Assembly (NCBI RefSeq): GCF_030010235.1
Contig: NZ_JASCRS010000001.1
Coordinates: 868,001-932,000, forward strand
Length of the DNA: 64,000 nucleotides
Origin: Leucobacter sp. UT-8R-CII-1-4
Lineage (GTDB): Bacteria > Actinomycetota > Actinomycetes > Actinomycetales > Microbacteriaceae
Reading direction: 5' to 3'
The notes under the pieces were generated by a model. The model saw only the letters and a list, made by a program, of their open reading frames with translations. It searched no databases and was not told the origin of the DNA. Every line of letters starts with the position of its first letter. The first letter of the stretch is position 1. Both the position numbers and the translations under genes were made by a program. This document shows positions 5,920 to 33,341 of the stretch, in pieces.

Positions 5920-7518
5920 TTGAGAACCCTGTCAAAGTCCAAGGGCGCTACGCCCATCGCGGTGGGAGCAGGCATTACCATGATGCTCTCACTAGTTGCC
6001 TGCACACCGAGCGTTCCAGGCGGCTCGGGTGGCGGTGACTCGTCAACGATGACGATCTTGCTCAGCGACAGCGTTGACAACATCGATCCGGCGCTCGCGT
6101 TCAGCACGGGTGGCCGTCAGGCCACATGGATGGTCTATGAATCGCTCGTGCGTGTCGACCCTCAGACGGGTAAGGCGATTCCAGGTCTTGCTGAAGAGTT
6201 TGACTTCACCCCTACATCGGCCTCGTTCGTAATAAAAGAGGGCGCTTTCTGCGCAGATGGCGGCGAGATTACCGCAGGCACTGTCGCCCGCAACTTCGAG
6301 CGCATGAAAGATCCCGAGACGAATGCCCCGCTTGTCAATAACTTCTTTGGTTCTGCCGACTTCACCGTTGAATTCGACGATGCCGCACGCACGGTCGATG
6401 TGGCCCTGACCCAGTCGATGCCATTCCTCGGCACCGTGCCTTCGTTTACTCAGCTCGGTATCGCCTGCGACTCGGCGCTCGAGAACCCCGAAGTGATGAA
6501 GAACGGCTCTGACGGCACTGCTCCCTACGTGGTCGCCGACTTCGTGACCGGCTCGCACATCACGCTCACTCGCAACGATGACTACAACTGGGGCCCCGAG
6601 GGCTTCAAGATCGAAGAGCTGCCCGAGACGGTAAAGCTGCAGATCGTGGCCGATCCTGACACCCAGGTGAACCTGCTGCTCGGCGGCGAGGCAGACGCAG
6701 CGTCACTTCGCGTTGCCCAGCTCGCGCGGTTTGAACAGGAGACCGGCTTCACTCAGCAACTTGCTGACACGGAGATTTCGATGCTCATGTTCAACGAGCG
6801 CGAGGGCTTCTCAACCGCAGATGTTGCTGTACGCCAGGCACTCACGCAGGCTATTGACCCGGCAGAACTGACTGATATCGAGACGCAGGGGCTCGGTTAC
6901 GTGCCGAACTTCTTGCGCCCGCCAGTAAACGTGTGTGTCGATGAAGACGCGATCGCAGATGCTCGCCCGACCGGCGGAGTCGAGGCCGGTCAGAAGACCC
7001 TCGAAGCAGCTGGTTACACCAAGAACGCCGACGGCATCTACGAAAAGAACGGCACTCCGATCTCGGTGCAGTTCTTGCAGATGGAGCTTACTAGCCCCTC
7101 GGTAGAGTTCATCACCGACGCATGGACAAAGCTTGGGGTACAGGTCGAGGTTGACGGGCGCGCGCCGGGTCAAGCAGTTGACGTGCTGACCTCTGGCACA
7201 GGTTGGGGCTCGAGCATCGTGGGCATCGGTTCTTCGCAGCCGACCGGTATTCGCCCGTTCTTCGTAGGCCCAGCTGCTCCAGAAGGCCCCAACTTCGGAG
7301 CAGTGAGCAACCCGGTGTATGCCCAGAAGCAGGGCGAGGCATCGCAACTGACCGGTCTCGAGTCGTGCGGTGCTTGGATCGAGGCTGAGTCAGCGATCGT
7401 GTCGAACGCGGACTGGGTGCCGACCATCGCCTCTGATACCCAGTGGGTATTGCGCGATGGCGTGAGCTTCTTCAACGATTCGGCGCAGATCGACCCGCTC
7501 AACCTGCGTAAGAAGTAA
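5920..7518 (+). CDS. Oligopeptide ABC transporter substrate-binding lipoprotein (SBP family 5)
   Basis: A lipoprotein of about 532 residues that captures peptides outside the cell for the permeases encoded next. The N-terminus has a short basic region (RTLSKSKG), a hydrophobic core and the lipobox LSLVAC. The body has the SBP_bac_5 layout (NIDPALAF, SLVRVDPQTG, later VAVRQALTQAIDP). I chose a TTG start at 5920 because GGAGGA lies three bases before it and it places the lipobox Cys about 27 residues in. An ATG 123 bases upstream would add an implausible extension. Twenty-one bases separate it from the permease gene. Confidence 0.9.
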   Translation: MRTLSKSKGATPIAVGAGITMMLSLVACTPSVPGGSGGGDSSTMTILLSDSVDNIDPALAFSTGGRQATWMVYESLVRVDPQTGKAIPGLAEEFDFTPTSASFVIKEGAFCADGGEITAGTVARNFERMKDPETNAPLVNNFFGSADFTVEFDDAARTVDVALTQSMPFLGTVPSFTQLGIACDSALENPEVMKNGSDGTAPYVVADFVTGSHITLTRNDDYNWGPEGFKIEELPETVKLQIVADPDTQVNLLLGGEADAASLRVAQLARFEQETGFTQQLADTEISMLMFNEREGFSTADVAVRQALTQAIDPAELTDIETQGLGYVPNFLRPPVNVCVDEDAIADARPTGGVEAGQKTLEAAGYTKNADGIYEKNGTPISVQFLQMELTSPSVEFITDAWTKLGVQVEVDGRAPGQAVDVLTSGTGWGSSIVGIGSSQPTGIRPFFVGPAAPEGPNFGAVSNPVYAQKQGEASQLTGLESCGAWIEAESAIVSNADWVPTIASDTQWVLRDGVSFFNDSAQIDPLNLRKK

Positions 7519-7539
7519 GCGAAACTAACACACACCATC

Positions 7540-8552
7540 ATGACCGCTGAAACCACTCAAGCCCCGGTACGGGTCGACTCGAACGAGCCGGCCCGTACCG
7601 GGGCGCGATCCCCCTGGACCGGCTTTCTGCTGCGCCGCATCGGGTCGCTGATCCTGAGCCTCTGGCTGATCGCCACGCTCGTGTTCTTCCTCGCCCGCGC
7701 AATCGGTGGCGACGCCGTGCGCGCAGCTGCGGGTCTCACTGCCACACCTGAGTACATCGCCGCCGAACGCGCTGCCCTTGGCCTCGATGACCCGCTTCTC
7801 GAACAGTATCTGCGCTTCATCGGGCGCCTGTTCACCTTTGACTTCGGCACCTCGATCTCGACCGGCAACCCCGTCATCGTTGAAATTGGCTCTCGCCTGC
7901 CGTACACCGTGCAGCTCGGCCTCTACTCGTTTGTGCTCGCGATGCTGATTTCGATTCCCCTCGGTATCTGGATGGCTGTTCGCACAGAGAACGGGAGGGG
8001 CGCGAAGACCAACATATCGTTCAACGCGCTTACCGGTTTCTTCGCCTCGGTGCCCGACTTTCTGATCGCGATCGCGCTGGTCATGATCTTCGCCGTGGGC
8101 CTTCGCTGGCTGCCTGCCGCGGGTGGTAGCGGGTTCACCGCGTTCATCTTGCCCGTGATCACCATGTCGCTCGGGCTGATCGCAGTGCTCAGCAGGCTGA
8201 TGAAGGCCGAGACGACGCGAGTGCTTCGCGAGGACTACATTCGCACGGCCAGGGCGAACAACCTACCGCAGCGCGTTGTGCTCTTTCGGCACGTGCTTCC
8301 CAACGTATTGACGGCGACTCTCACATATTCGGGCATGACCCTGGCATCGCTTCTGGGCGGCGCGATTATCACCGAGACCGTGTTTGGTTGGCCGGGTATC
8401 GGCAACCTACTGGTGAAGTCGATCGCCGTCTACGACTACACCCTGCTTGAGGGCCTCGTGATTCTGATCGCGACCTTCTCGCTGGTGACCACCTTCATCG
8501 TCGACCTGATTCTTGCCAAGGTCGACCCCAAGTCTCTGATCAGGAGTAGCTG

Positions 8553-19493: not shown

Positions 19494-22400
19494 CTAGTAG
19501 TTGAGTGTCGGCTTCGGTCTCATCTCAGGTGAATCATGATGAGATGAGTTTGCTCTGGACTGATGAAACGCGCTCGCTTCCAGTAATCCCAGCAGCAGTT
19601 GGTAATCACGATCGCGGTTCTTTGCAACGCCTTTTTCCTGTCCAAGCGCGCTGTCCCCCTTGACTCCGTAAAGGTCGCGAAAGCAAGCTACGGCTGTAGC
19701 TTTACGGCGCCATTCTTCAGTGTTCACAAAATCGGGTTGCCCGATTTCTTCAAGCCAGGGCGCATTTTCTGCGATGGCTTGATCCACGAGCTGTTCAGCG
19801 CGGAGCTGGATTGCGTATTCCCGGTCTTCAATCGCGGCGCGAATCTCTGCGTCGCCGACTCGTGGTGCTTGCTCGATGATGCCGGCTATCTTCGGCATCG
19901 TCAGTTCCGAGCGTTCAAGATGCTTCGCCAATCGGTAGTGCAGCACCGCGAGCTTATCTACCGCTGTTTCCAGTTCGCGTTTTGCCAACAATACGGGGAT
20001 CACTTCTTGTGGGTCTTGGCCGAGGGTTTCGAGCCTGCGAATGTTGGCGAGGACTGAGCCTAGGTAGGGCGATTCATGGGTGTCGTCGACAAGATCCAGC
20101 GCTTCGAGTTTTGGGAGGTGCTCTTTTTCAAGCTCGTGCACGATGAGTGATTGGTGCTCGGCCACGAGCTGTCTGATTGAGGTGACGCGTTCGGTTTCTT
20201 CCTGTCCGGTGTCGTGGGCGGACAGGTCACCGCTTTTTGTGAGGACGGCACGTTCGAGAATGTCGCGCCAGCTTGTCCACATTGGTGTCGCCGACTTGTC
20301 GCCGATACTGGTGTCGGAATCGACTACGACATAGGCATGATTTGCTTGCTTCCCGCGAGTCATTCCGACATAGAACGTTTCTCGTGTCGTTGATGAATCG
20401 ACAATGAAGTGGGCCGTGGTGACAGTGCGGCCTTGCGACCGGTGTGCGGTTGTCGCATATCCGAGTTGCACATGATCGGCACAATAGTCTGCGGGGAGCA
20501 CGACAGTTTCTTCGCCTGCGACAGCGACAATATCGCCACTTTTGAGAATGTCCGAGACGATCCATTCGTCGTTGTTCTTCACCCAACGGTCGTGGTCGGT
20601 GCGCAGTGTCCGCTTATTTTGTCTGGTGACGATCCTGTCGCCGGGTGAGGCGACACCGGACATGATTGTCGCTTCTCGTGTCGCGTCGACTTCGCCTATC
20701 TCGATCCGCCAGTCCCGGGCCAGAGTGTTCAGCCGCTCCACCATGTCGTTTTGAGGTGCGATCAAGAGCGACACCGAGTCCTTGTCGCCCGCGGCTTCGT
20801 CGTTCTTCCATGCGTCGACGGCTTGGCTAATGATTGTTTCTTCGAACCCTGATTTCACTCGATCATGCTTGATGTACGGGTCAAGCCCACTGGTCTTGCC
20901 GAGTCGCAGGAGCTTTGAGGCGTCGCCTTCCCATTCGGTTTTGAATCGGTGCAGGTTCACGAGTTCCGCCACGTCGTCACGGCTCTGGGCGAGTAGTCCG
21001 AATGCGCCACCGGAGTCGACCGCTGCGAGCTGCGCCCAGTCGCCCACGAGAAGGAGTTTCGCGCCTGCCTGTGCTGCTTGTTCGCGGAGCGTATCAAGTG
21101 CGATCGTTCCAGCGAGCGAGGCTTCGTCAACGATCACCAGCGTGCCTTCTCGCATCGAGAATTCGTCTTGCACCTCCTCGTTTCGTGTTTCCGCTGCACG
21201 GTGTTCGTGCAACCATTTCGCCGTGTTTTCCGTCTCGATCTTGAGGGATTCGGCGAGCACTTCCGCAGCTCGTGCGGTTGGGGCAAGCCCGCGAACGCTG
21301 CCTTCGCCGTGTGTGTGCTGCCAAAGTTCTAGGAGCTTTTCAAGGCTCGTTGTTTTCCCTGCACCGGCAGGCCCCACGAGCACGTCGACGACTCGGCCGC
21401 TCGCTGCGATATTCGCGACGGCTGCTGCTTGGTCGGGAGAGAGCACCCGCTGTTTTTCCCCGGTTGGAGTGAAGAGCCGTTCGCTGATGTCTGCTTCAGT
21501 AACTCTTGGGCCGGTGAGGGTGTTTCCTGCTGCGAGGAGGCGTTCTTCTGCATCCCACACTTCGCGCGTGGTGTAGAGATCTCTCGCTTCGGGGTGGAAC
21601 ATGTCTTCGCCGTTTGCGGTGCGGAACGCATTCGGGGTGCGGAGCATATTCTTTGGAGTGAGACGAATCGCTTGCGAGAGCACGACTTCGGTGATGCGCC
21701 GTGCCGCGAGCTCACGATCTTCGGGACTGCGAAATCGCCACCCAGCGATGGCGCGCAGGGCACCTGTTTCAGCGTTTCGCGTCTTCCAGGTTGATCGTGT
21801 TCCTGCCAGCTCGTGCAGCACCAGTTCTGCTGCATCGAGCACGGCCTGGTCGTCCACGTCGTCCTGCCGGAATGACCACAACGGCAGGTCGTTCAACCGG
21901 GCACGGTGCGTATCGCGTACTCGATCAGCGAATGAGAAACTGTCGCCCACATGCTTTCTTGCACGTTCACGCCATGAACTGGTGAGGCCTTTGAGAGATT
22001 GTGCTTTCTTCACGTTCCTCGTGCGCAGCGTCGCACGTTGCCTGATTCTGATCACCTCGCTTGCACCGGGCGCCCTGCCGTATTTCCCCACGTACTCGGC
22101 AATCATGCGGTCTTTCTCACGGGCCACTTGTTTCGCACGGGTCGAGTATTCGTCGTTCAGCTCCTGCGGGATTGCGTCGATCTGCCACTTCACTGCCCCG
22201 TTCTTTTCTCCCATATCGAGCGCGAATTGGTGCCTGGCTGCAGGAGTGTCCGCGCGCTGCCCATCGACCAGGTACTGTCGATATTCCTTCGGGTGTTCAA
22301 GCGCTTTCTGCGTCGTCCATTCGACACCGAACCGGTTTGAGATCTCGTCCATCAGTACGGTGTCGTAATATGCGCCGGCTGTGGAGACAGCAGGCATCAA

Positions 22401-23126
22401 TGACCAGCGTGAGTCGATCGTTCGCCACCTTCCGTCGACGCCTTGGACACGGTTAGAAATCAGCATGTGGGTGTGAAGCTGCGGATCTCCCTCGCGGGAG
22501 TCCCAGTGGTTGAACGTGGCAGCAAGTACGCCCTGGACGTGTGCTTGCGCGATTCCGTCCGTGCCGGTGCGCGTGCGGATGATGTCGGTTTCCAGCTTCT
22601 CCAATGTCGCGTCCATCGCGGCCTGGTGTGCAGCTTGAATCTGCCCCTTCATTTCTGGATCGGCCAGCGCCCACCAGCTACTCACGCTCTTGGGCGGGGA
22701 GAATACAAACTCGAACCCGGCAACGGATTGGGTTTCTTTCCGGCCGAGTTCTTCACGCTCGATCGACTCCAGCTTCGCGGTCTGTTCCTCTGTCGTCATT
22801 GTCGCGTCGAGTTCTTGTTCAACGCGAGCTGCGATGCGTTCTTCAACCGGCACTGGGGTCGCAAACTTTTTGCCGAGCTGCACTTCGGACAGTGGATCTT
22901 TCCCCTCACCAAACAGGAGCGCGAGCTGTCCCTCTTTGGCGACACGACCGTCTTTGATTCCGAGTGCGGCAAGCCCGCGGCCGCGCCACACCCCGGGTGG
23001 GGTGCCGTCCGCGAAATAGTAGGCGGCTTTGTCGCCTGTCATGAACCGTGGTTGTTCTTCCTGCACGGTGTCGTACAGGTACTTCCATGCCTCACGGTTG
23101 GCTCCGATGAGTGCGACAGTTAGCAT
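19494..23126 (-). CDS. traA: MobF-family conjugative relaxase-helicase (TraA/TrwC type)
   Basis: A 1210-residue two-part relaxase that nicks at oriT and unwinds plasmid or integrative-element DNA. The N-terminal TrwC domain has the metal-binding histidine cluster in DPQLHTHMLISN, and a tyrosine-rich start (WKYLYD, AAYYFADG). The helicase half has Walker A GPAGAGKTTS (about 585), Walker B LVIVDEAS (about 667) and a UvrD-like C-terminal motif TTAHRSQGRT (about 895). I chose the ATG at 23126, which has CTAGGAG upstream; the frame is open for another 150 codons but these overlap the zinc-finger gene in another frame. It is rich in TGTCGC/GCGACA between 20.28 and 20.79 kb. Confidence 0.92.
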   Translation of the reverse strand: MLTVALIGANREAWKYLYDTVQEEQPRFMTGDKAAYYFADGTPPGVWRGRGLAALGIKDGRVAKEGQLALLFGEGKDPLSEVQLGKKFATPVPVEERIAARVEQELDATMTTEEQTAKLESIEREELGRKETQSVAGFEFVFSPPKSVSSWWALADPEMKGQIQAAHQAAMDATLEKLETDIIRTRTGTDGIAQAHVQGVLAATFNHWDSREGDPQLHTHMLISNRVQGVDGRWRTIDSRWSLMPAVSTAGAYYDTVLMDEISNRFGVEWTTQKALEHPKEYRQYLVDGQRADTPAARHQFALDMGEKNGAVKWQIDAIPQELNDEYSTRAKQVAREKDRMIAEYVGKYGRAPGASEVIRIRQRATLRTRNVKKAQSLKGLTSSWRERARKHVGDSFSFADRVRDTHRARLNDLPLWSFRQDDVDDQAVLDAAELVLHELAGTRSTWKTRNAETGALRAIAGWRFRSPEDRELAARRITEVVLSQAIRLTPKNMLRTPNAFRTANGEDMFHPEARDLYTTREVWDAEERLLAAGNTLTGPRVTEADISERLFTPTGEKQRVLSPDQAAAVANIAASGRVVDVLVGPAGAGKTTSLEKLLELWQHTHGEGSVRGLAPTARAAEVLAESLKIETENTAKWLHEHRAAETRNEEVQDEFSMREGTLVIVDEASLAGTIALDTLREQAAQAGAKLLLVGDWAQLAAVDSGGAFGLLAQSRDDVAELVNLHRFKTEWEGDASKLLRLGKTSGLDPYIKHDRVKSGFEETIISQAVDAWKNDEAAGDKDSVSLLIAPQNDMVERLNTLARDWRIEIGEVDATREATIMSGVASPGDRIVTRQNKRTLRTDHDRWVKNNDEWIVSDILKSGDIVAVAGEETVVLPADYCADHVQLGYATTAHRSQGRTVTTAHFIVDSSTTRETFYVGMTRGKQANHAYVVVDSDTSIGDKSATPMWTSWRDILERAVLTKSGDLSAHDTGQEETERVTSIRQLVAEHQSLIVHELEKEHLPKLEALDLVDDTHESPYLGSVLANIRRLETLGQDPQEVIPVLLAKRELETAVDKLAVLHYRLAKHLERSELTMPKIAGIIEQAPRVGDAEIRAAIEDREYAIQLRAEQLVDQAIAENAPWLEEIGQPDFVNTEEWRRKATAVACFRDLYGVKGDSALGQEKGVAKNRDRDYQLLLGLLEASAFHQSRANSSHHDSPEMRPKPTLNY
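20286..20788. repeat. Dense TGTCGC/GCGACA hexamer cluster inside the relaxase gene
   Basis: Eleven copies of TGTCGC or its complement occur in about 500 bases: starts at 20286, 20297, 20451, 20518, 20524, 20636, 20650, 20667, 20679, 20768 and 20783. Both orientations are present. Random expectation for one hexamer on both strands is about 0.25 copies. The sites lie in the helicase-coding part and are compatible with the frame. Confidence 0.8.
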
Positions 23127-23644
23127 TTCGTGTCTCCTAGTTGTGCTCGGCGGCGCGAGCTTCGTTTGCGACATGTCGCACCGCAGTAACGTGTCCGTGT
23201 CGTGGGCGACACGAGAGGGGTGCCGCATTCCAGGCACACCGACAACGTGATTTGCCCTGAATGTCGCCACGATGCGACACGACATTCTGTGGAACAGAAC
23301 CGATGTCTCGACTGTCTGGGCACGAACACGATGTCGCATGATTCTCTGGCGCATGTCGCGGCGACAAGTTTGGAGATGGTGCCCATTCGTCGTTTGCGTG
23401 TCGCTTCGACTTCGCGGCGACATGTGTCGCTGCAGTAGCGGCGCTGTTTTGTCTTCGTGACAAATGTCGTGTCGCATCCTGGGCGCTCGCACGGGATCTG
23501 CCAGAGTCCAAGATCGTCTACTGGTTCTGCTGGGTGCGCGATCCCGCGCGGCATATGTCTCCGGGCAGCATCCCACTGCCTAGCTTCCCAAGCCCGCTGT
23601 TCCCTGGTCTTCGCCACAAGTGTCGGCTTACTTTGTCGTGTCGC
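23113..23644. repeat. Dense TGTCGC/GCGACA hexamer cluster over the zinc-finger gene
   Basis: Fourteen copies lie in about 530 bases: starts at 23113, 23168, 23174, 23206, 23262, 23274, 23332, 23354, 23361, 23399, 23417, 23425, 23470 and 23639. Two abutting copies make the perfect 14-bp palindrome TGCGACATGTCGCA at 23167-23180. The cluster spans the relaxase start and the whole three-zinc-finger gene. Confidence 0.85.
23120..23617 (-). CDS. Small protein with three Cys-rich zinc-finger-like repeats
   Basis: A 165-residue basic protein with three copies of a short module: CERPGCDTTFV then RRYCSDTCR; CARESCDIVFV then HRFCSTECR; CLECGTPLV then TRYCGATCR. Each module offers four cysteines and probably binds one zinc. 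Between and after them are arginine-rich segments, so DNA or RNA binding is likely. Its stop overlaps the relaxase start, so the two are co-expressed. It may be an accessory of conjugative transfer, such as an oriT- or motif-binding protein. I do not recognise a named family. Confidence 0.75.
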   Translation of the reverse strand: MAKTREQRAWEARQWDAARRHMPRGIAHPAEPVDDLGLWQIPCERPGCDTTFVTKTKQRRYCSDTCRREVEATRKRRMGTISKLVAATCARESCDIVFVPRQSRHRFCSTECRVASWRHSGQITLSVCLECGTPLVSPTTRTRYCGATCRKRSSRRRAQLGDTKC

Positions 23645-24257
23645 GACGACGCAGGAGAATCGACGCTGGGGTCACTCGTTCATGAGTCCGCTTGAACTTC
23701 CGTCGCGCTTGTGCAGCGCGGGAGACTCGACGGTTTGCTGCCTCTTCTTTGGCTCGTCTTTCGCTTCGCCACACCTCCGTCCTGCGGAGCTCCTCAAAGA
23801 CATTGACCAAGCGAAGGCGTTCTTGAATGTCGTCTGGGAGCCTCCGCGACCAAATTGCATCCGCCACTATCGGAAAAATAAAGACCAGTGCTGCAGAGAT
23901 GACTGCTGCTGCGATCAGCCAGGTGTTGTCGCTGAACCAGAACTTCGAAGCGGCACAGAGTCCGAAGCTCACGAGTATCCATGTACCGGTCAGCCAGAGT
24001 TGAAACCTGAAGGCTTCATGCTGCTTCATCGGATACGGTGCGGCGTTGACCAGCGGTAGGCACCCCTCTTGGTCAAAGAAATCAGCAACGTTCGGCTCCC
24101 GGTAGAAGTGCTGGATCCTCACGAGAAGACGTTCATGCTCAACATGCGTAGGAGCCTTTTCGTAAGTCTCCACGTCTCGGATGAGGTGTTCGTTTTCTCT
24201 GCTCTTTCGTTGGGACGAGTCCATGAAGAGCAGCTTGATTCGACCTGTGTTTTTCAT
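23628..24257 (-). CDS. Hypothetical membrane protein of the mobile region
   Basis: A 209-residue protein with a hydrophilic N-terminus (about 1-80), two closely spaced membrane helices (about 85-105, LTGTWILVSFGLCAASKF, and 112-130, WLIAAAVISAALVFIF) and a very basic C-terminal half (many Arg/Lys, about 140-209). Both ends should face the cytoplasm. Just ten bases separate it from the zinc-finger gene, so it begins the transfer operon. The start could instead be the ATG at 24224; neither has a strong ribosome site. Function unknown; a role in mating-channel or DNA anchoring is only a guess. Confidence 0.65.
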   Translation of the reverse strand: MKNTGRIKLLFMDSSQRKSRENEHLIRDVETYEKAPTHVEHERLLVRIQHFYREPNVADFFDQEGCLPLVNAAPYPMKQHEAFRFQLWLTGTWILVSFGLCAASKFWFSDNTWLIAAAVISAALVFIFPIVADAIWSRRLPDDIQERLRLVNVFEELRRTEVWRSERRAKEEAANRRVSRAAQARRKFKRTHERVTPASILLRRRDTTK

Positions 24258-24541
24258 CTTGTTTTCTTTCGCTTAAGCCCAAGTGCTCGTCACTTGGACT
24301 GCTACTCGAAGGGGTAGCTCGCGCAGTGGCGTGTCACGGAACGTGAAACGGGTGCATCCTCAAATGCCAGTCGTGTACCCCAAACCTCCGGCTCCGCCGA
24401 GGTTTCCCCTGCTTCCTCTCTCCTGGCTCTCTAGCTCCTGTTTCCCGGCTGCTCTGCCTGTGCTTCGGCCCTCGCCACTCTCGACCATCTGCACTCGGCT
24501 TGTGGCAATAAAGAAGTGCGCGGCGGCAGGCTTCGTGAAGC
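24258..24541. other. Divergent intergenic region of the mobile segment
   Basis: This 284-base region separates the leftward relaxase operon from the rightward FHA gene and so should hold both promoters. It contains a pyrimidine-rich tract on the plus strand (about 24395-24480). I could not identify a convincing oriT nick site or promoter pair. Confidence 0.4.
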
Positions 24542-25273
24542 ATGAAGAGTCTCACTAACTGCTGGTTCTGCTATTCACTGATCTTGGTGGACGACACCGT
24601 GACCGAACCTTGTCCGGTTTGCAAGGTGCTCCCGAAGGAACACCGACCGGACACCTCACCGAGAGCGGACACGATGATCGCTGGTGCCGCAATCACCACC
24701 ACAGAGGCAGAGTCGAATGTCGAGGTACAACCGGCACTCGATCAGACGCTCGTGCAACAGCAAGCAAGTTCGTCCGCACCCTGGGTGGCGACCAATGTCG
24801 CGAGCGCGGCACCAGGTGCCGCTGCGGCGACAAATGTTGAAGTCGCTCACTCGCCCAATGTCGCGAATGATGCTGAGGACATTTTCACGCACGCCGAAAA
24901 CGATGCGACACGACTTCGGAAAGCGTCGACGCGGTGGGCGTGGGTTGTTGAGACAGGACAGGGCGACATCATCCCCCTCCCACATGTCTCTTGCGTCATC
25001 GGGCGCGACCCAGAAGCGACATTGGGTGAAGCCGCAGTAAAGATCCACGACAAGACACGCACAGTCTCAAAGTCGCACGCGCGACTCACCTATGACGCGA
25101 CACAGGCGCAGTGGCATGTCGCAGACCTCGCCTCATCCAACGGCACTGTCGTTCTCGTGAATGGACAAGAGGTTGATGTCGCGGCGAACACTGCCGAGTG
25201 GGTGCCGCAGTATTTCAAGCTCGGTGACATGGCTTGTCGCATCACACGGATGCAAGTCCCGTCTCGCCCATAA
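24542..25273 (+). CDS. Zinc-ribbon and FHA-domain protein
   Basis: A 243-residue protein. The N-terminus has two CxxC pairs (CWFC at about 8-11 and CPVC at about 24-27), a zinc ribbon. A long alanine-, valine- and asparagine-rich linker follows. Residues about 137-240 form a forkhead-associated domain: VIGRDPEA, VSKSHARL and SSNGTVV are the phosphothreonine-binding loops. FHA proteins read Ser/Thr-kinase marks; no kinase gene is in the window. The linker coincides with the TGTCGC-rich stretch and encodes repeated N-V-A units. It lies in the mobile segment and may be a regulatory accessory gene. Confidence 0.82.
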   Translation: MKSLTNCWFCYSLILVDDTVTEPCPVCKVLPKEHRPDTSPRADTMIAGAAITTTEAESNVEVQPALDQTLVQQQASSSAPWVATNVASAAPGAAAATNVEVAHSPNVANDAEDIFTHAENDATRLRKASTRWAWVVETGQGDIIPLPHVSCVIGRDPEATLGEAAVKIHDKTRTVSKSHARLTYDATQAQWHVADLASSNGTVVLVNGQEVDVAANTAEWVPQYFKLGDMACRITRMQVPSRP

Positions 25274-25306
25274 AACGGTCTGTCGCAGCGCAGCGACATT
25301 GCGACA
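24796..25306. repeat. Dense TGTCGC/GCGACA hexamer cluster over the FHA gene
   Basis: Thirteen copies in about 510 bases: starts at 24796, 24827, 24859, 24905, 24963, 25016, 25097, 25117, 25177, 25235, 25281, 25293 and 25301. The last three are in the non-coding region just after the stop codon, followed by a CGACA-rich run (to about 25326). So the enrichment is not purely a protein-coding effect. Confidence 0.85.
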
Positions 25307-25363: not shown

Positions 25364-25855
25364 ATGTCCAACGCCATCACTGAAATCACTTTCGCTTGCG
25401 GACACCAAGAAGATCGTGACTTGTCAGCGAAACCTGCTGGCGACCGCAGAAGTTACGCGAGCTGGCTTGCAAAACAGAAATGCACCGAATGTTGGAAGCG
25501 GACGTCGAAGAGGGAAGTGTCAGCTGAAATCAAAGCAGAGCGTGAAGCGGAGATGGCGGCCGCCGAAGAGGATCAGGAACAGAGCAATCTGCCGATACTG
25601 CAGGGCAGTCCGAAACAGGCGTCTTGGGCGTTGCAGACCCGTTTCAACATGTTGCGGGGTTTGTATGCCGACTTCGTAGAAGGCGGGAGCATGTCAGAGG
25701 CGGAGTTTGATGGTGAGGTGCTCGATCTTGTGCGGAAGATTGATCGGGCAAAGTGGTGGATTGATAATCGCGAGGCCGATAACCACGAGCTGCTGGAAAT
25801 GCTGAAAGACCCGGGTGAAGCCGCGTTCGGAACCAGCAATGAAAACCCGTTCTGA
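25364..25855 (+). CDS. Hypothetical protein with a Cys/His metal-site N-terminus
   Basis: A 163-residue protein. FACGHQ and KCTECW near the N-terminus (about 11-43) look like one zinc site of the kind seen in plasmid and phage hypothetical proteins. An acidic, glutamate- and alanine-rich helix follows (about 50-75), then a helical C-terminal half (about 85-150). AAGGAAG stands upstream of the ATG. It follows the FHA gene by 90 bases on the same strand. The hexamer so frequent before it is absent here. Function unknown. Confidence 0.65.
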   Translation: MSNAITEITFACGHQEDRDLSAKPAGDRRSYASWLAKQKCTECWKRTSKREVSAEIKAEREAEMAAAEEDQEQSNLPILQGSPKQASWALQTRFNMLRGLYADFVEGGSMSEAEFDGEVLDLVRKIDRAKWWIDNREADNHELLEMLKDPGEAAFGTSNENPF

Positions 25856-25980: not shown

Positions 25981-26258
25981 TCGAGAGCTTCAGCTTCGTT
26001 CGCTGCAATGAAGCGGCGGCGGTACTCTGCATCACGCTGCGCCGGGGTGAACGCGGCCAGATAGTAGCGGTCGCATTCTTGTTCGAGAGATTCGATTGTC
26101 TCACTCGCGGTGACCTTGGCTGAGGTCTCACCGAGATAGAAAAAAGCGGCAACAGGGGAAGGGAGATCTTGCAACCCAATCTCCCCGAGCTGCAGTTGCT
26201 CAGCGAGAATTTCAAGCTGCTCCATGACTGGTGCGGGGAGCACTACTTTGCGGCTCAT
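25968..26258 (-). CDS. Small hypothetical protein
   Basis: A 96-residue acidic, largely helical protein (VMEQLEILAEQLQLGE, later FTPAQRDAEYRRRF). I do not recognise a family. Its start overlaps the stop of the NrdH-like gene by four bases, so it is co-translated with it. Such small partners beside NrdH are common on actinobacterial mobile elements. Confidence 0.6.
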   Translation of the reverse strand: MSRKVVLPAPVMEQLEILAEQLQLGEIGLQDLPSPVAAFFYLGETSAKVTASETIESLEQECDRYYLAAFTPAQRDAEYRRRFIAANEAEALDWEA

Positions 26259-26482
26259 TTTGCTGCTTCGGTCGCGATCTTATCGGGACGGAAACCTGTC
26301 CAGTGATCGGTGTCAGTTATCACGACTGGTGCGCTGAGGTATCCGAGTGATTTCACCAGTTCAAGAGCTTCAGCGTCTTCGGTGAGGTCGACAATCTCAT
26401 AATCGAGGCCCTTGCTATCCAAAGCCCGATACGTTGATTTGCACTGCACGCAGCTTGGCTTGCTGTAGACGGTGATTGCCAT
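26255..26482 (-). CDS. NrdH-like glutaredoxin
   Basis: A 75-residue redoxin. It has the redox motif CVQC (residues 11-14) in YSKPSCVQCKSTYRALD, the cis-proline in SAPVVI and a C-terminal WTGFRPDKI, all typical of NrdH, the electron donor of class Ib ribonucleotide reductase. No reductase genes (nrdE, nrdF, nrdI) are near, so it is an orphan copy, perhaps carried by the mobile segment. AGGAGG seven bases before this ATG decides the start. The frame is open much further upstream but the added sequence is not protein-like. Confidence 0.88.
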   Translation of the reverse strand: MAITVYSKPSCVQCKSTYRALDSKGLDYEIVDLTEDAEALELVKSLGYLSAPVVITDTDHWTGFRPDKIATEAAK

Positions 26483-26867
26483 GATGTCCTCCTGAATGTA
26501 AGACGCACTCTCTCGCGCATCCTCCACATCAAATTTCTTTTCCCTTTTGGGTGATTCATCACCCTTAGAGACAGCACGGAGCTGTCCACCGGCGTCAAGC
26601 TGGCAACGCGCGGCACGCAGTGACGGGCGAGGCAGTAAGCCGGTTGATTGCGGAGCGATGGAACGTAAAATGCGCTTGCGCAAAAGGAAAAAGAAATATG
26701 AACAGCACGCGAAGCGTGTCCGAAAGAATGCACTTGCGGTGCATAAAAGTTGTTCCACGACTAGGCTTTCCGACACACCTCGGTGGCGGAATAGCTTCAA
26801 GAATTGGCGTGAAACGCACACCAGGTGATAGTCTTCTACGGTTGCCTAAAGCAACGCACAGAGATGT
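26483..26867. other. Intergenic region before the tRNA
   Basis: No gene is supported in these 385 bases. It should hold the promoters of the nrdH-like gene and of tRNA-Met. A near-perfect palindrome, GGGTGATTCATCACCC at 26550-26565, lies 68 bases upstream of the nrdH-like start and could be an operator. Several short frames on both strands lack start signals. Confidence 0.4.
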
Positions 26868-26944
26868 GGCTGAGTAGCTCAGCTGGTTAGAGCGCGCGAC
26901 TCATAATCGCGAGGTCGCGGGATCGAGCCCCGCCTCAGCTACCA
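26868..26944 (+). tRNA. tRNA-Met (anticodon CAU, elongator type)
   Basis: A full cloverleaf of 77 bases including CCA. The acceptor stem GGCTGAG pairs with CTCAGCT (one G-U), the D stem GCTC with GAGC, the anticodon stem CGCGA with TCGCG around loop CTCATAA, and the T stem GCGGG with CCCGC around ATCGAGC. CAU could also be a lysidine-modified tRNA-Ile; overall the sequence resembles actinobacterial elongator tRNA-Met. It is the integration target of the adjacent integrase element. Confidence 0.92.
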
Positions 26945-26979
26945 AAAGAACCCCTGGTCTTACCAGGGGTTCTTTCATT
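26900..26979 (+). repeat. attL-like direct repeat (tRNA 3' half plus terminator)
   Basis: This 80-base segment, from the anticodon loop through CCA and the terminator, recurs at 28454-28533 with three mismatches. The central 48 bases (26911-26958) are identical to 28465-28512. It marks one end of an element integrated at the tRNA 3' end. Confidence 0.88.
26947..26975 (+). terminator. tRNA-Met terminator
   Basis: A perfect 12-bp stem (AAGAACCCCTGG with its complement) around a five-base loop begins two bases after the CCA. It may also stop transcripts of the convergent integrase gene. Confidence 0.8.
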
Positions 26980-28222
26980 ATGCCGCAGCTTGTCCATTTC
27001 GCAGGTGTCTGCTGATTGCATCGGCTATAAGTGCCAACTCGAATTCACTTAGATTGTCGAGGTCCACGGTTACTCGGTTGCTTGGCGGACCGTCTTGCCC
27101 TTTTGCTCTAGGCCAGGACGTAGACGTTGTCACATTCGCAAGCTCGTCAAACGTGACAGCGGCATAGATCTGCGTAGTGCTCAAGCTTAAATGCCCAAGG
27201 AGCTCTTGAATCTCCCGAATGTTTCCACCTTTGCGCAACCCCACCGTTGCAGCTCTGTGCCGTAGCGAGTGCAGGCACCAATTCCCAATATACGCCTTCG
27301 TTCGTTTGTATACGGTCGAGGGATGCAGGTGCTTCCCCGTTTTCTGGTTTCGGAAGTAGTACCCACTTCCTTGTCGTCGCTCCAGCTCTACCAAGAGCTC
27401 TAAAGCTAGATCGTTCAGCGGCACGAACCGGACTCTGTCGCCTTTCCCATGAACCGTAAGAGTCCTGCCGACTCGATCACGGGTATGAAGAACTGTAATT
27501 TCGTTTCTTCGCATTCCCAGAGATCCTGCAAGCGCGATAGTGGTTTGAACTTCTAACCCCGCTGAGTAAAAAGCGTCAAACATGTCGTCTTCTAGGATTG
27601 GGGCGCGTGGAGGCTTACCCGGTCGAATGCTCTGTAGGTCGATAGTTGGATCAGTGGAGATGTATCCAGCTTTGAGCGCCCAACCATAGAAGGAAACGAA
27701 AGAGGCTCGGATCTTCCTTCTGTACTCCTGACTCCACCGGTATTTGTTTTCACGCAAGTACTCACCAAGCATCTGAGGCGTTGCCAAAAGCGGATCCTTC
27801 GTTCCAGCAAAACGCCGGATGTCACCCAGCCGTTGAGTAACCGTCTCCTCGGCCCGGTTTATCGAGCGCAAGTGCAACGCGTAGTTAAGAAGCAAGGGCG
27901 AAGTGACGGTTTCCGCCCTATGAGGAACGAAGTCAATCGCTCGCGCCAACCCAACCATGGGATTGCTGGCTATCAGTTCTCTCTGCGCAGCCCAGTGAAA
28001 AAAGACCTGAGCCACTCGATGAACTTTGCGAAGGTACGAAATTGACCAGATAGCAGCTGATCTTCGGAAGAAAACTTCTAGCCGTTGATTTGTAATTGAT
28101 TCAATTCCACAAACGGGTAAGTACCGGTCGAGTAGCTTTAAGGATTGCGCCTTGTACGTTGGTGACGCTGTTCTGTCGAAGTCCTTGCCAAATTGGTCTA
28201 GGAGCGATTGCCGACTGTCCAT
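26978..28222 (-). CDS. Tyrosine recombinase (integrase)
   Basis: A 414-residue phage-type integrase. The N-terminal half holds SAM-like DNA-binding segments. The catalytic half shows Arg in GMRRNEIT (about 236), the HxxR box in HSLRHRAAT (about 317-320), the second His in LLGHLSLSTT and the nucleophile Tyr in QIYAAV (about 352). GGGAGGG before the ATG supports the start. Its 3' end abuts the tRNA terminator and the gene is enclosed by the two att-like repeats, so it is the integrase that used this tRNA. Base composition is visibly lower in GC than the neighbouring chromosome. Confidence 0.92.
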   Translation of the reverse strand: MDSRQSLLDQFGKDFDRTASPTYKAQSLKLLDRYLPVCGIESITNQRLEVFFRRSAAIWSISYLRKVHRVAQVFFHWAAQRELIASNPMVGLARAIDFVPHRAETVTSPLLLNYALHLRSINRAEETVTQRLGDIRRFAGTKDPLLATPQMLGEYLRENKYRWSQEYRRKIRASFVSFYGWALKAGYISTDPTIDLQSIRPGKPPRAPILEDDMFDAFYSAGLEVQTTIALAGSLGMRRNEITVLHTRDRVGRTLTVHGKGDRVRFVPLNDLALELLVELERRQGSGYYFRNQKTGKHLHPSTVYKRTKAYIGNWCLHSLRHRAATVGLRKGGNIREIQELLGHLSLSTTQIYAAVTFDELANVTTSTSWPRAKGQDGPPSNRVTVDLDNLSEFELALIADAISRHLRNGQAAA

Positions 28223-28453: not shown

Positions 28454-28533
28454 CTCATAATCGTGAGGTCGCGGGATCGAGCCCCGCCTCAGCTACCAAA
28501 AGAACCCCTGGTTTCACCAGGGGTTCTTTCATT
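28454..28533 (+). repeat. attR-like direct repeat (tRNA 3' fragment plus terminator)
   Basis: It is 77/80 identical to 26900-26979. One mismatch is in the anticodon stem (TCGTG instead of TCGCG) and two are in the terminator loop. The 5' half of a tRNA is missing, so it is not a functional tRNA gene. The hairpin at 28500-28528 remains intact. Confidence 0.88.
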
Positions 28534-28674
28534 GTGTACTACATGGCTCTCTTCGTTGCTGCGCAAACGGGCGACGTCTCAAACATTTGCTTTGCCCGGT
28601 CTGCGTTTGATCAGCTTCCTTCAACGGCTATCTGGGGTAAGACCCGAAGACGTCCGCGATGGACTATTAACGCC

Positions 28675-31256: not shown

Positions 31257-31565
31257 CAGGAAGGTGCTTTCCGGCTCAGCGGCTGAGAGCAACGGGCTCT
31301 CCGTTCATGCGGTGGATCTTGCCCAAACTATAAAAATGACAGCTGCAGAGCGTCACGAGAATAACCCCCGGTTCGCCCGGCGGTTTTGTCGTTTTCGGCA
31401 GTTTTTGCGAGTGTGTTGAATGCTTCTTTGTTGCAACATTTGCCCGCTTTGAATTTCTTCCCGAGCAGGAGTAACTTCAGAACTAGGGCTTTTTTGGTCA
31501 GCTAGTTGGAAAAACAGTCCTGCGTGGCGGCCTCCCTGAACGTTGCATTACCCAGGAGGTTTTTC
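31257..31565. other. Intergenic region before the surface-repeat gene
   Basis: These 309 bases carry no supported gene. An imperfect 9-bp GC-rich hairpin at 31363-31385 followed by TTTTG may terminate the YdeI-like transcript. The rest should hold the promoter of the surface protein; I see no clear operator. Confidence 0.4.
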
Positions 31566-33341
31566 ATGCGACTACTACCCACCATCCTTGGCGCAACGGT
31601 TGCTGCCGCTGCCGTACTCAGCTGCGGCACCATAGCAACCGCTGCCACCCCACCCGCGACGATCGCTCGCGCAGAATCGCCTACAGCTCTCGCCGCAGAA
31701 ACCGGCACCTGGGGCACAGCGCCATGGAGCCTCGAAGACGGCATACTGACCGTCGAACCAGGCACGCTCGGAAGCCGCGGTTGGGAACCCCTCAAAAACG
31801 AAGTCACCCGCATTGTGTTCGCGGATCCAGCGAATACAAAACTGCCGGCACATGCGGCCGAAATGTTCGCGAAGGTGCCAAATCTCGTAGCGATTGAGGG
31901 CATCGAACAACTCGATACCTCCGCAGCAACCACCTTTAGCTCGATGTTCTGGGAATCACCAAAACTCACCTCCCTCGACCTCTCGGCTTGGAAGACCGGC
32001 AGCGTCAACAACCTCTACGCGATGTTTTGGAAGGCATCCGGCCTCACCTCGCTGAATCTTGCCGGCTGGGATACAAGCAATGTTGAGACCACCGCGTTTA
32101 TGTTCCAGGGTGATTCCTCACTCACTGATCTCGATATCTCAGGTTGGGACCTTGGCAATGTGACCGATATGCAGGCAATGTTCCAAGACGTAAGCAGTCT
32201 GACAACTCTCGATGTGAGCGATTGGGATACCAGCAGCGTGGTGAACATGGAGGCACTCTTCCACAACGCACACTCACTCAAAGAACTTGATGTCACCGGC
32301 TGGAACACCTCAAAAGTTGAGATATTCAAAACCACGTTCTACGGCACCACCGCGCTCACCAAACTTGACCCCTCGGGTTTTGACACCTCAAGCGCGACAA
32401 CCATGCATGGCACCTTCGCCTACGCCTCAGCCCTAACCGAGCTTGACCTCAGCGGCTGGAACACCGGCAAAGTAACAAACATGGAGCAACTCTTCTCTGA
32501 CACCACCTCGCTGAATCTCGTAAAGACCGCCGGTTGGGACACCTCGCAGGTGACCACAATGGAATATCTCTTTACCCGTTCGGGTGCGTCCTCAGTGCAG
32601 GTCGCTGGCTGGAATGTCGAAAAGGTACAGACCCTCTTTGGCGCATTTGGCGAAATGGCGAACCTCACCGCCATCGATCTTTCGGGTTGGAACACCGAGA
32701 GCGTCACCGATATGGATTACTTCTTCTCCGAGACCCCGCTGCGCGCCATCACCATTAGCGATGAAACCACTATTCCTGACGGAGTTGACCTCTGGATTCC
32801 AAGCGCACTGATTGAACCGCTCGCCAATGGCAAGTGGGTCGAGATTGGTTCTGGCAGTATCGCGTTGCCGATCCGCACGAAGTGGGACGGCACCAATGAA
32901 GATTTCTACAACTTCACCGCCTCGCGCCTTGATGCCGGCACGTATGTTTGGCAAGAAACGATCATCGTGAATTACGAGGGCAACAATCCTCAGGTAAGCG
33001 GCAACACCGAGCGCTTGATTGGTGGCACTGGACGCCCCGTAACGATCGCCGAAAATGGTTTCACGGTCGACAAGGCCACCTTCACCGGCTGGAACACCGA
33101 AGCAGACGGCAGCGGCACTGCCTTCACTGCCGGCCAGGTTGAGAACCTTGCCGCTGGCGAGTACACGCTTTACGCCCAGTGGGATTCGGCAACGAAACCC
33201 GTAGATCCGACAAAACCCACCCCTAAACCCGGCACACTCACCAACACCGGTGCCGAGTCTGCTTGGGGCGTCGGCGTCGCCGGTGCGGCACTGCTCGCAA
33301 TTGGCGCTCTGCTTGCGCTTCGCCGAAAGTCAAGCAAGTAA
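31566..33341 (+). CDS. BspA/DUF285 repeat surface protein with sorting signal
   Basis: A 591-residue secreted protein. It has a signal peptide (about 1-27, cut near IATAA), an N-terminal region, then about ten DUF285/BspA-type leucine-rich units of some 24-26 residues with the theme LTSLDLSGWDTSNVTNM (about 100-410). An InlB-B/Flg_new-like repeat follows (FTGWNTEADGSGTAF to YAQW), and then a Lys/Pro linker, LTNTG, a membrane helix and RRKSSK. Such proteins are displayed on the wall and bind host or microbial partners in other genera. The AGGAGG at 31553 sets the start at the ATG 31566, not the upstream in-frame codon. Confidence 0.9.
   Translation: MRLLPTILGATVAAAAVLSCGTIATAATPPATIARAESPTALAAETGTWGTAPWSLEDGILTVEPGTLGSRGWEPLKNEVTRIVFADPANTKLPAHAAEMFAKVPNLVAIEGIEQLDTSAATTFSSMFWESPKLTSLDLSAWKTGSVNNLYAMFWKASGLTSLNLAGWDTSNVETTAFMFQGDSSLTDLDISGWDLGNVTDMQAMFQDVSSLTTLDVSDWDTSSVVNMEALFHNAHSLKELDVTGWNTSKVEIFKTTFYGTTALTKLDPSGFDTSSATTMHGTFAYASALTELDLSGWNTGKVTNMEQLFSDTTSLNLVKTAGWDTSQVTTMEYLFTRSGASSVQVAGWNVEKVQTLFGAFGEMANLTAIDLSGWNTESVTDMDYFFSETPLRAITISDETTIPDGVDLWIPSALIEPLANGKWVEIGSGSIALPIRTKWDGTNEDFYNFTASRLDAGTYVWQETIIVNYEGNNPQVSGNTERLIGGTGRPVTIAENGFTVDKATFTGWNTEADGSGTAFTAGQVENLAAGEYTLYAQWDSATKPVDPTKPTPKPGTLTNTGAESAWGVGVAGAALLAIGALLALRRKSSK

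Follow-up and report, generated by a model that had tools for sequence, protein, structure and literature searches.

ParB/parS systems, omega heptads and plasmid centromeres rely on a short site that is present several times and is recognised by a protein of the element, and KOPS/FRS, Chi and the recognition repeats of Streptomyces TraB are short over-represented words, polar or compact, that guide a motor. In cluster A mycobacteriophages, 20-30 stoperators of 13 bp lie mostly in one orientation relative to transcription, and MobF relaxases have been reported in a Leucobacter genome (PMC6550527 and PMC6868719 respectively). Here we describe a MobF relaxase segment within a 64,000-nucleotide stretch of Leucobacter sp. 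UT-8R-CII-1-4 (contig NZ_JASCRS010000001.1, positions 868,001 to 932,000; hereafter the window), in which the hexamer GCGACA, or TGTCGC on the opposite strand, is gathered in three patches of about 500 bases (b). These patches lie across the relaxase gene, the gene of a zinc-finger protein (P0001, the finger protein) and the gene of an FHA-domain protein, and we compare them with those of related elements.

A short word concentrated in three patches

GCGACA/TGTCGC occurs 99 times in the window, as compared with a mean of 68.6 and a maximum of 94 in 100 dinucleotide shuffles; 39 of the 99 copies fall in the three patches (Table 1), and no other hexamer of the window shows so strong a local excess. 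An initial annotation, made from the letters alone, had described three dense patches covering the helicase part of the relaxase, the zinc-finger gene and the FHA gene and continuing beyond the FHA stop. This description holds, with 11 copies at 20286-20788 (12 with the one at 20261), 14 and 13 copies in the other two, 36 of the 39 sites within genes and three (25281, 25293 and 25301) past the FHA stop. The chance expectation of 0.25 copies per patch given there was too low, since the rate in 16 chunks of the same genome (276 copies in 300,602 b, a tenth of the genome, or 0.92 per kb) gives about 0.46 per 500 b. Those chunks never hold more than 4 copies per 600 b, so that the density of the patches is not that of the host, and a host-wide word such as an uptake sequence or a HIP1-like repeat was rejected.

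Codon-preserving shuffles (2000 per gene) gave a mean of 4.0 copies for the relaxase gene, where 18 are observed, 3.0 for the zinc-finger gene (12 observed) and 2.1 for the FHA gene (10 observed), and the observed count was not reached in any of the 2000 shuffles of any of the three. Causes at the level of protein or codon are therefore excluded in the window, and the word is selected as DNA. P0003, the gene next to the zinc-finger gene, shows no excess (2 copies versus 0.75, reached in 329 of 2000 shuffles).

Table 1. Patches and genes of the relaxase segment, in window coordinates
Feature	Position	Strand	Remarks
Patch R, 12 GCGACA/TGTCGC copies	20261..20788	.	within the MobF gene, helicase part (aa ~780-955)
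Patch Z, 14 copies across the zinc-finger gene	23113..23644	.	17 copies if linked out to 22800; contains the palindrome
Patch F, 13 copies	24796..25306	.	FHA gene and 33 b beyond its stop
MobF relaxase/helicase P0005, 1210 aa	19494..23126	-	NCBIfam MobF 208 bits (cut-off 100); Pfam TrwC
Three-finger treble-clef-like protein P0001, 165 aa, proposed word binder	23120..23617	-	12 Cys; three C-C...C-C fingers
P0003	23628..24257	-	without family in Pfam, NCBIfam and PHROGs; without patch
FHA-domain protein P0002, 243 aa	24542..25273	+	Pfam FHA 34.9 bits (cut-off 20.7); Cys pairs N-terminal
P0004, conserved backbone protein of these elements	25364..25855	+	PHROG 16123; 0 word copies
ORF with glutaredoxin domain	26255..26821	-	Pfam Glutaredoxin

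Both orientations of the word occur in each patch (4/8, 7/10 and 7/6) without strong strand polarity, and a polar guide of the KOPS/Chi or KOPS/FtsK type, rightly dismissed in the initial annotation, was rejected for this reason. A tandem duplication was rejected as well, the signal being kept when only copies with distinct flanks are counted. The palindromic pair TGCGACATGTCGCA reported there is found at 23167-23180, its one occurrence in the window, and the NVA motif pointed out in the FHA linker is present twice. In the zinc-finger gene the copies use all frames.

Some relaxation of the word is seen within the patches. ACGACA is also enriched about 18-fold (13 versus 0.7 expected), so that the window word is better written [G/A]CGACA, and GAGACA is raised (5 versus 0.5 expected). 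No single change at positions 3-6 is raised more than 2.8-fold, and the flanks of the word are without conservation. This pattern has the look of a binding matrix.

The word changes between lineages

Relatives were sought with the relaxase (60 genomes, 38 matched, mostly by distant MobF proteins), with the zinc-finger protein (54 genomes of the genus, 11 matched) and by a scan of one named genome. Twelve Leucobacter elements resulted, namely that of the window and 11 others whose relaxases are 58-66% identical to it over the best tblastn segment; in all 12 the zinc-finger gene adjoins MobF, and all 12 carry patches. Nine of them use GCGACA, with up to 29 copies per 600 b, and in two of the nine (L058 and L112) GCGTCA is also enriched, 11-fold. 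The remaining three (L055, L056 and L057) carry GGACA in place of GCGACA, at 22-25 copies per 600 b with the preceding base free (pentamer scores of 6e-13, 2e-15 and 6e-13). In the relaxase tree this GGACA trio forms a clade (100/100) nested among the GCGACA elements, beside the window with moderate support (83/93); the tree of the zinc-finger protein is poorly resolved. Every listed Leucobacter patch has both orientations except one at 6685-7215 of L112, where a 375-aa gene holds 14 GCGACA copies in a single orientation (0/14). In L053 a second word, ACCGG, occurs 21 times in 1 kb (7500-8500) beside a GCGACA patch.

The zinc-finger search gave 10 matches outside the window's genome, of which three loci were analysed, and two weak matches outside the genus led to a 320-aa protein with one finger and a probable coiled coil, encoded directly before MobF. 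This finger/coil protein is present in 7 of 60 genomes of another family, MobF adjoins it in all seven, and all seven loci carry patches of yet another word, CGGTCA (14-25 copies per 600 b), CGGACA coming second. A distant copy of the finger/coil gene is found on a Citricoccus plasmid, which shows a weak class of its own, GGCCA, enriched 3.3-fold in its patch; against 500 codon shuffles its finger/coil gene has 26 copies versus 19.1 (reached once) and its relaxase 58 versus 40.7 (never reached). The preferences by position are thus GCGACA with A allowed at position 1, GCG[A/T]CA, GGACA with position 1 free, and CGG[T>A>C]CA, and the core common to the words is [C/G]G-N-CA (CGACA, GGACA, GGTCA, GGCCA). 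No match to the FHA protein or to P0004 was found in the CGGTCA and GGCCA loci, and therefore only MobF and the finger gene have window counterparts there.

In a further actinobacterial family, five loci have three-finger genes, as read from their translations, that end at or near the MobF start (near 6.5-7.0 kb in L167, L168, L179 and L194, and at 8.1-8.6 kb in L170). The first four contain CGCTCA at 4.0-4.6 per kb over 5.0-8.5 kb of the locus, as against 0.3-2.3 per kb in six of the family's loci where no finger gene was recognised and 2.6 in L170, which has one; these rates were worked out by hand from binned counts, and the class is provisional. Separately, L183 shows CCGTCA (10 distinct copies in 600 b) and GACGGA (9) at the MobF start (6463-7362), where no finger gene was recognised.

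Patches largely keep their places

When the relaxases are aligned, the copies cluster at aa 700-1000 whichever word is used, GCGACA or GGACA. The relaxase patch is clear in nine of the 12 Leucobacter elements (the window, L052, L055-L058, L100, L101 and L112). With 500 codon shuffles for each of the 12 relaxases, the count of the class word was never reached in ten, and was reached 4 times in L053 and 8 times in L054; the class word also exceeds codon shuffles in the finger/coil and FHA-place genes of the relatives. Of the 24 GGACA sites of the L057 relaxase, seven lie where the window encodes identical amino acids, and at six of these seven the window has no GGACA. Conversely, five of the 18 window GCGACA sites lie on identical amino acids, and three of the five are without GCGACA in L057.

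A second constant patch lies in the gene between P0004 and the zinc-finger gene, in the window and in 10 listed relatives (the L058 contig ends nearby), and in each of those 10 it is the patch with most copies. This FHA-place gene encodes an FHA protein in some elements and a protein without Pfam match in L053, L054, L101 and L112; the patch is thus kept although the protein is not. A third patch, in the GGACA trio, lies in a large gene, the L055 copy of which is annotated with Eco57I-methylase and SNF2-helicase matches. The zinc-finger gene itself is site-poor (0-2 copies) in eight of the nine Leucobacter elements tested, the window with its patch Z being the exception.

No fixed spacing of site pairs was found. 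There is a weak helical-phase signal (Rayleigh p 0.0004 at 10.5 b for GCGACA and 0.005 at 10 b for CGGTCA, the pairs not being independent) and none for GGACA, and overlapping palindromes occur among the site pairs (TGTCGCGACA, 9; TGACCGGTCA, 11).

Patch strength across MobF loci

Hexamers were scored locally (log10 P) by counting copies only where their flanks differ. Under this count the identical-flank repeats of L154 and L168, prominent in raw scans, drop away; the GGACA class is under-scored by it. The best hexamer score had a median of -16.3 (range -7.8 to -32.7) in 20 loci with a finger gene, versus -6.1 in five Leucobacter MobF loci without one, -6.1 in eight MobF plasmids (taken among 30 listed of 5000 matching records), -6.5 in 40 class-wide loci (one from each of 39 among 135 MobF genomes, and a 40th stretch, L201, with no MobF match) and -5.8 in 15 host chunks. 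Among 26 loci with a finger gene beside MobF, none of which was picked for its patches, 19 have strong arrays, one a moderate array (L149), four a faint excess and two none. One of the repeats with identical flanks, ACAGA-rich and located at 454-1300 of L154 (Agreia plasmid pCOWG) beside a ParA gene, is possibly a plasmid centromere.

The finger protein as candidate binder

Strong patches accompany a zinc-finger gene beside MobF, their word varies by lineage and their positions are mostly kept, and the idea of a dispersed site for a protein of the element, raised in the initial annotation, thereby gains comparative support in addition to the shuffle and host-density results. That the zinc-finger protein is what binds it, also suggested there, is our deduction. 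We consider this binding probable, as the finger gene is the sole gene other than MobF common to the compared classes, its Cys pattern is of the treble-clef order, and one residue of finger 3 varies with the word.

A treble clef is defined by a zinc knuckle and a beta-hairpin followed by a helix that bears the second Cys pair (PMC4999995). The 12 Cys are invariant across 12 sequences of the finger protein, and the AlphaFold model of P0001 (pLDDT 79, pTM 0.39) has a helix at each second Cys pair, so that pattern and model helices agree with this order; the L168 protein matches DUF2116, a 'probable treble clef', below the cut-off. The Pfam matches of P0001 are of zinc-finger type only. The final Cys of finger 3 is preceded by Arg in each of the three GGACA proteins and by Thr (T148 in P0001), Ala or Gly in the seven plain GCGACA ones, which makes this preceding residue a candidate reader of the first base, even though L058 (Arg) and L112 (His), both users of GCG[A/T]CA, break this one-residue rule. 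By way of analogy only, nuclear receptors, whose fingers are also treble clefs, read AGGTCA-type half-sites.

The other genes are less suitable as binders. The FHA protein is disfavoured by the absence of any match to it in the CGGTCA and GGCCA loci and in L053, L054, L101 and L112, and MobF by the many MobF loci that have no such patch.

Possible functions of the arrays

Our preferred, still tentative, reading is that the patches are half-site arrays for the finger protein of the element, of which the likeliest use would be the element-specific silencing of transfer genes together with immunity. P0001, encoded next to the MobF relaxase, would recognise [G/A]CGACA half-sites, and many weak sites within 0.4-1.1 kb would gather many P0001 copies into a nucleoprotein patch. 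Arrays are found within the relaxase gene and within the opening gene of the divergent FHA operon, on either side of the upstream region that the two share. In a resident element such a patch could block elongation, or patches could bridge to each other, silencing the transfer genes; an incoming element with the same word would be silenced in trans, which would amount to immunity, and a change of word would be a change of immunity group. Silencing itself may be the function, a suggestion that we make with some reserve. Because the patches flank the divergent operons from inside and the upstream region is almost free of sites, a block of elongation or bridging fits better than repression at promoters.

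Several observations weigh against this reading. The shared upstream region is site-poor in the nine elements tested (0-4 copies in 0.3-1.3 kb in the GCGACA class), and therefore ordinary promoter repression is not what the arrays suggest. Six of the 20 loci with a finger gene (L055, -7.8; L149, -8.3; L057, -8.5; the window, -9.0; L144, -10.6; L100, -11.1) score weaker than the most extreme control, L186 (ACCACC, -11.8), and the window is further exceeded by the class-wide loci L171 (-10.0), L198 (-9.6), L183 and L195 (both -9.5), L188 (-9.3) and L178 (-9.1). With a finger gene beside MobF, the patch is faint in the CGCTCA loci L167, L168, L179 and L194 and absent from L170 and from L104, in which a two-finger gene lies beside a MobF cut by the contig end and 5.2 kb hold no patch. 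L053 and L054 have a mild relaxase patch (6 and 4 copies), and in L051 it is hardly visible (3). Words of another class also exceed codon shuffles in places, namely GCGACA in the GGACA-class relaxases L056 (0/500) and L057 (2/500; not in L055, 66/500), perhaps a trace of ancestry, GGCCA in L105 (0/500) and L148 (6/500), and GGACA in L149 (0/500). A thirteenth zinc-finger gene, at a contig edge in L102 (716-2850) with no MobF match in 20 kb, has neither a GCGACA nor a GGACA patch, only a weak excess of AAACCG (8 per 600 b). Finally, Foldseek gave no significant structural match for the P0001 model, and searches of solved structures by sequence and by fold yielded nothing significant for the finger protein.

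The many sites in either orientation and without fixed spacing could also be centromere-like, with the finger protein acting as an adaptor that pairs or segregates an extrachromosomal element in a KfrA- or ParB-like manner and the words marking incompatibility groups. The CGGTCA-class protein, a finger followed by a long region read as coiled coil, has the layout reported for KfrA (PMC7783346 and PMC7821693). The patches are separate and lie within unrelated genes rather than in one compact site, however, and the window copy is located in a 1.13-Mb contig, so that we regard a centromere as unlikely. A structure serving transfer seems somewhat less likely again. Here the finger protein would be an accessory factor of the relaxosome that sits on the patches and organises supercoils, the progress of the helicase or the entering strand, and it is true that the finger gene immediately precedes MobF and overlaps or nearly reaches its start in the window, in the CGGTCA loci and in other families, and that patches concentrate around MobF. 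On the other hand, some patches in the FHA-place and methylase/helicase genes are separated from MobF by up to about 6.7 kb, and MobF loci without a nearby finger gene are common. Single strands of the patches fold only mildly better than shuffles in three of four cases (z -1.5, -2.5 and -1.5; L052 -6.0), and single-strand structure as a function was rejected, since an excess of folding is expected of a word present in both orientations.

It is improbable that the word is a modification target or an identity mark read by an enzyme of the element or host (a methyltransferase, anti-restriction or nuclease system). The large Eco57I-methylase/SNF2-helicase protein of the GGACA elements does have a patch in its gene, but the window shows no recognisable gene of this type from 19.5 to 26.8 kb, local patches of 10-37 sites would be odd for a modification mark, and the base preferences are graded. 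That codon usage, protein repeats or tandem duplication explain the excess without any function at the DNA level is very improbable, for although the word is mostly in one orientation in some genes (L052, L101 and L112), as a favoured residue pair would give, the codon-preserving shuffles in the window and its relatives, the use of all frames in the zinc-finger gene, the sites beyond the FHA stop, the unconserved and distinct flanks and the change of word at a fixed place all argue against it.

Beyond the silencing of transfer genes by finger-protein arrays, the data allow a broader and more doubtful proposal, in which conjugative elements would have a new class of DNA address system made up of a relaxase-linked treble-clef protein and of dense coding-sequence arrays of the 5-6 bp word that it recognises. 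Synonymous and tolerated changes would have put the word into the coding sequence, and related elements would rewrite it in place and so define exclusion or immunity groups, much as phages switch repressor specificity.

The window element and its surroundings

P0004 is present in 10 of 54 genomes of the genus. The window segment is flanked by an amidohydrolase gene and, on the right, by the glutaredoxin ORF, a tRNA-Met and a small integrase unit; four relatives (L053, L055, L056 and L057, by tblastn) likewise have a glutaredoxin gene close to the element. The integrase unit is bounded by an 83-b direct repeat (26900-26982 and 28454-28536, 95%) that spans the 3' end of the tRNA-Met. Between the repeats lies the gene of a 414-aa tyrosine integrase, making a 1.5-kb integrase-only unit beside the relaxase segment, which we read as a separate insertion. 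Further on, 31506-33341 encodes a large protein that contains DUF285 in four stretches and matches the Listeria-Bacteroides repeat.

In the sole relative with wider surroundings annotated (genome G003), genes for a coupling protein, an integrase and a Y-family polymerase lie no more than 20 kb from the relaxase stretch, and none of these three is apparent in the window segment. The window relaxase (1210 aa) is shorter than those of 10 of the 11 relatives (1277-1330 aa), that of L054 ending at 932. For both reasons the window element is probably a remnant or a mobilizable form.

Comparison with known systems

If the proposed reading is correct, the code would be legible in the sequence alone and the word would predict shared DNA-binding specificity, and therefore which elements may exclude or silence each other. 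The three strong and two weaker classes would offer a natural series for the study of DNA recognition by bacterial treble-clef fingers, and the arrays would show the extent to which coding sequence can accommodate dozens of binding sites. For actinobacterial MobF elements they would mean a further layer of regulation; the literature searched, which left most subscription journals outside, held no description of it, nor of the word, the finger-MobF pair or such arrays.

As compared with ParB/parS-type centromeres, the element patches are not contiguous and have no compact site, and unlike KOPS/FRS, Chi and TraB repeats the word is mixed in orientation and clustered within genes. KfrA-type proteins resemble the CGGTCA class in having a DNA-binding head with a probable coil, a repetitive target and a conjugative element as host, but they act on one repetitive operator (PMC7783346, PMC7821693), whereas the element sites are spread over several genes. 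In the Leucobacter protein (P0001, 165 aa, three fingers) no coil is apparent, and the L105 finger/coil protein has a zinc finger. No KfrA N-terminal domain was found, the L105 protein having no Pfam family at E 0.01 and P0001 matches of zinc-finger type only; the L105 protein also has weak SMC/Rad50-type NCBIfam matches.

By analogy, the stoperator system would be the nearest worked precedent for arrays of a finger protein. According to PMC6550527, tens of repressor sites lie across the element, most of them off promoters, and are part of immunity specificity, and their consensus varies by lineage with the repressor, as GCGACA, GGACA and CGGTCA vary here with diverged finger proteins, for which a repressor role is presumed. 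The element arrays differ in consisting of 5-6 bp words in both orientations, up to 37 per patch and mostly intragenic, with a treble-clef-like protein; the mostly single orientation of stoperators is not shared by the listed patches except that of L112, and some genes are biased. The arrays would thus be counted with the known arrays that serve an element-encoded DNA-binding protein, and they may form a kind of their own.

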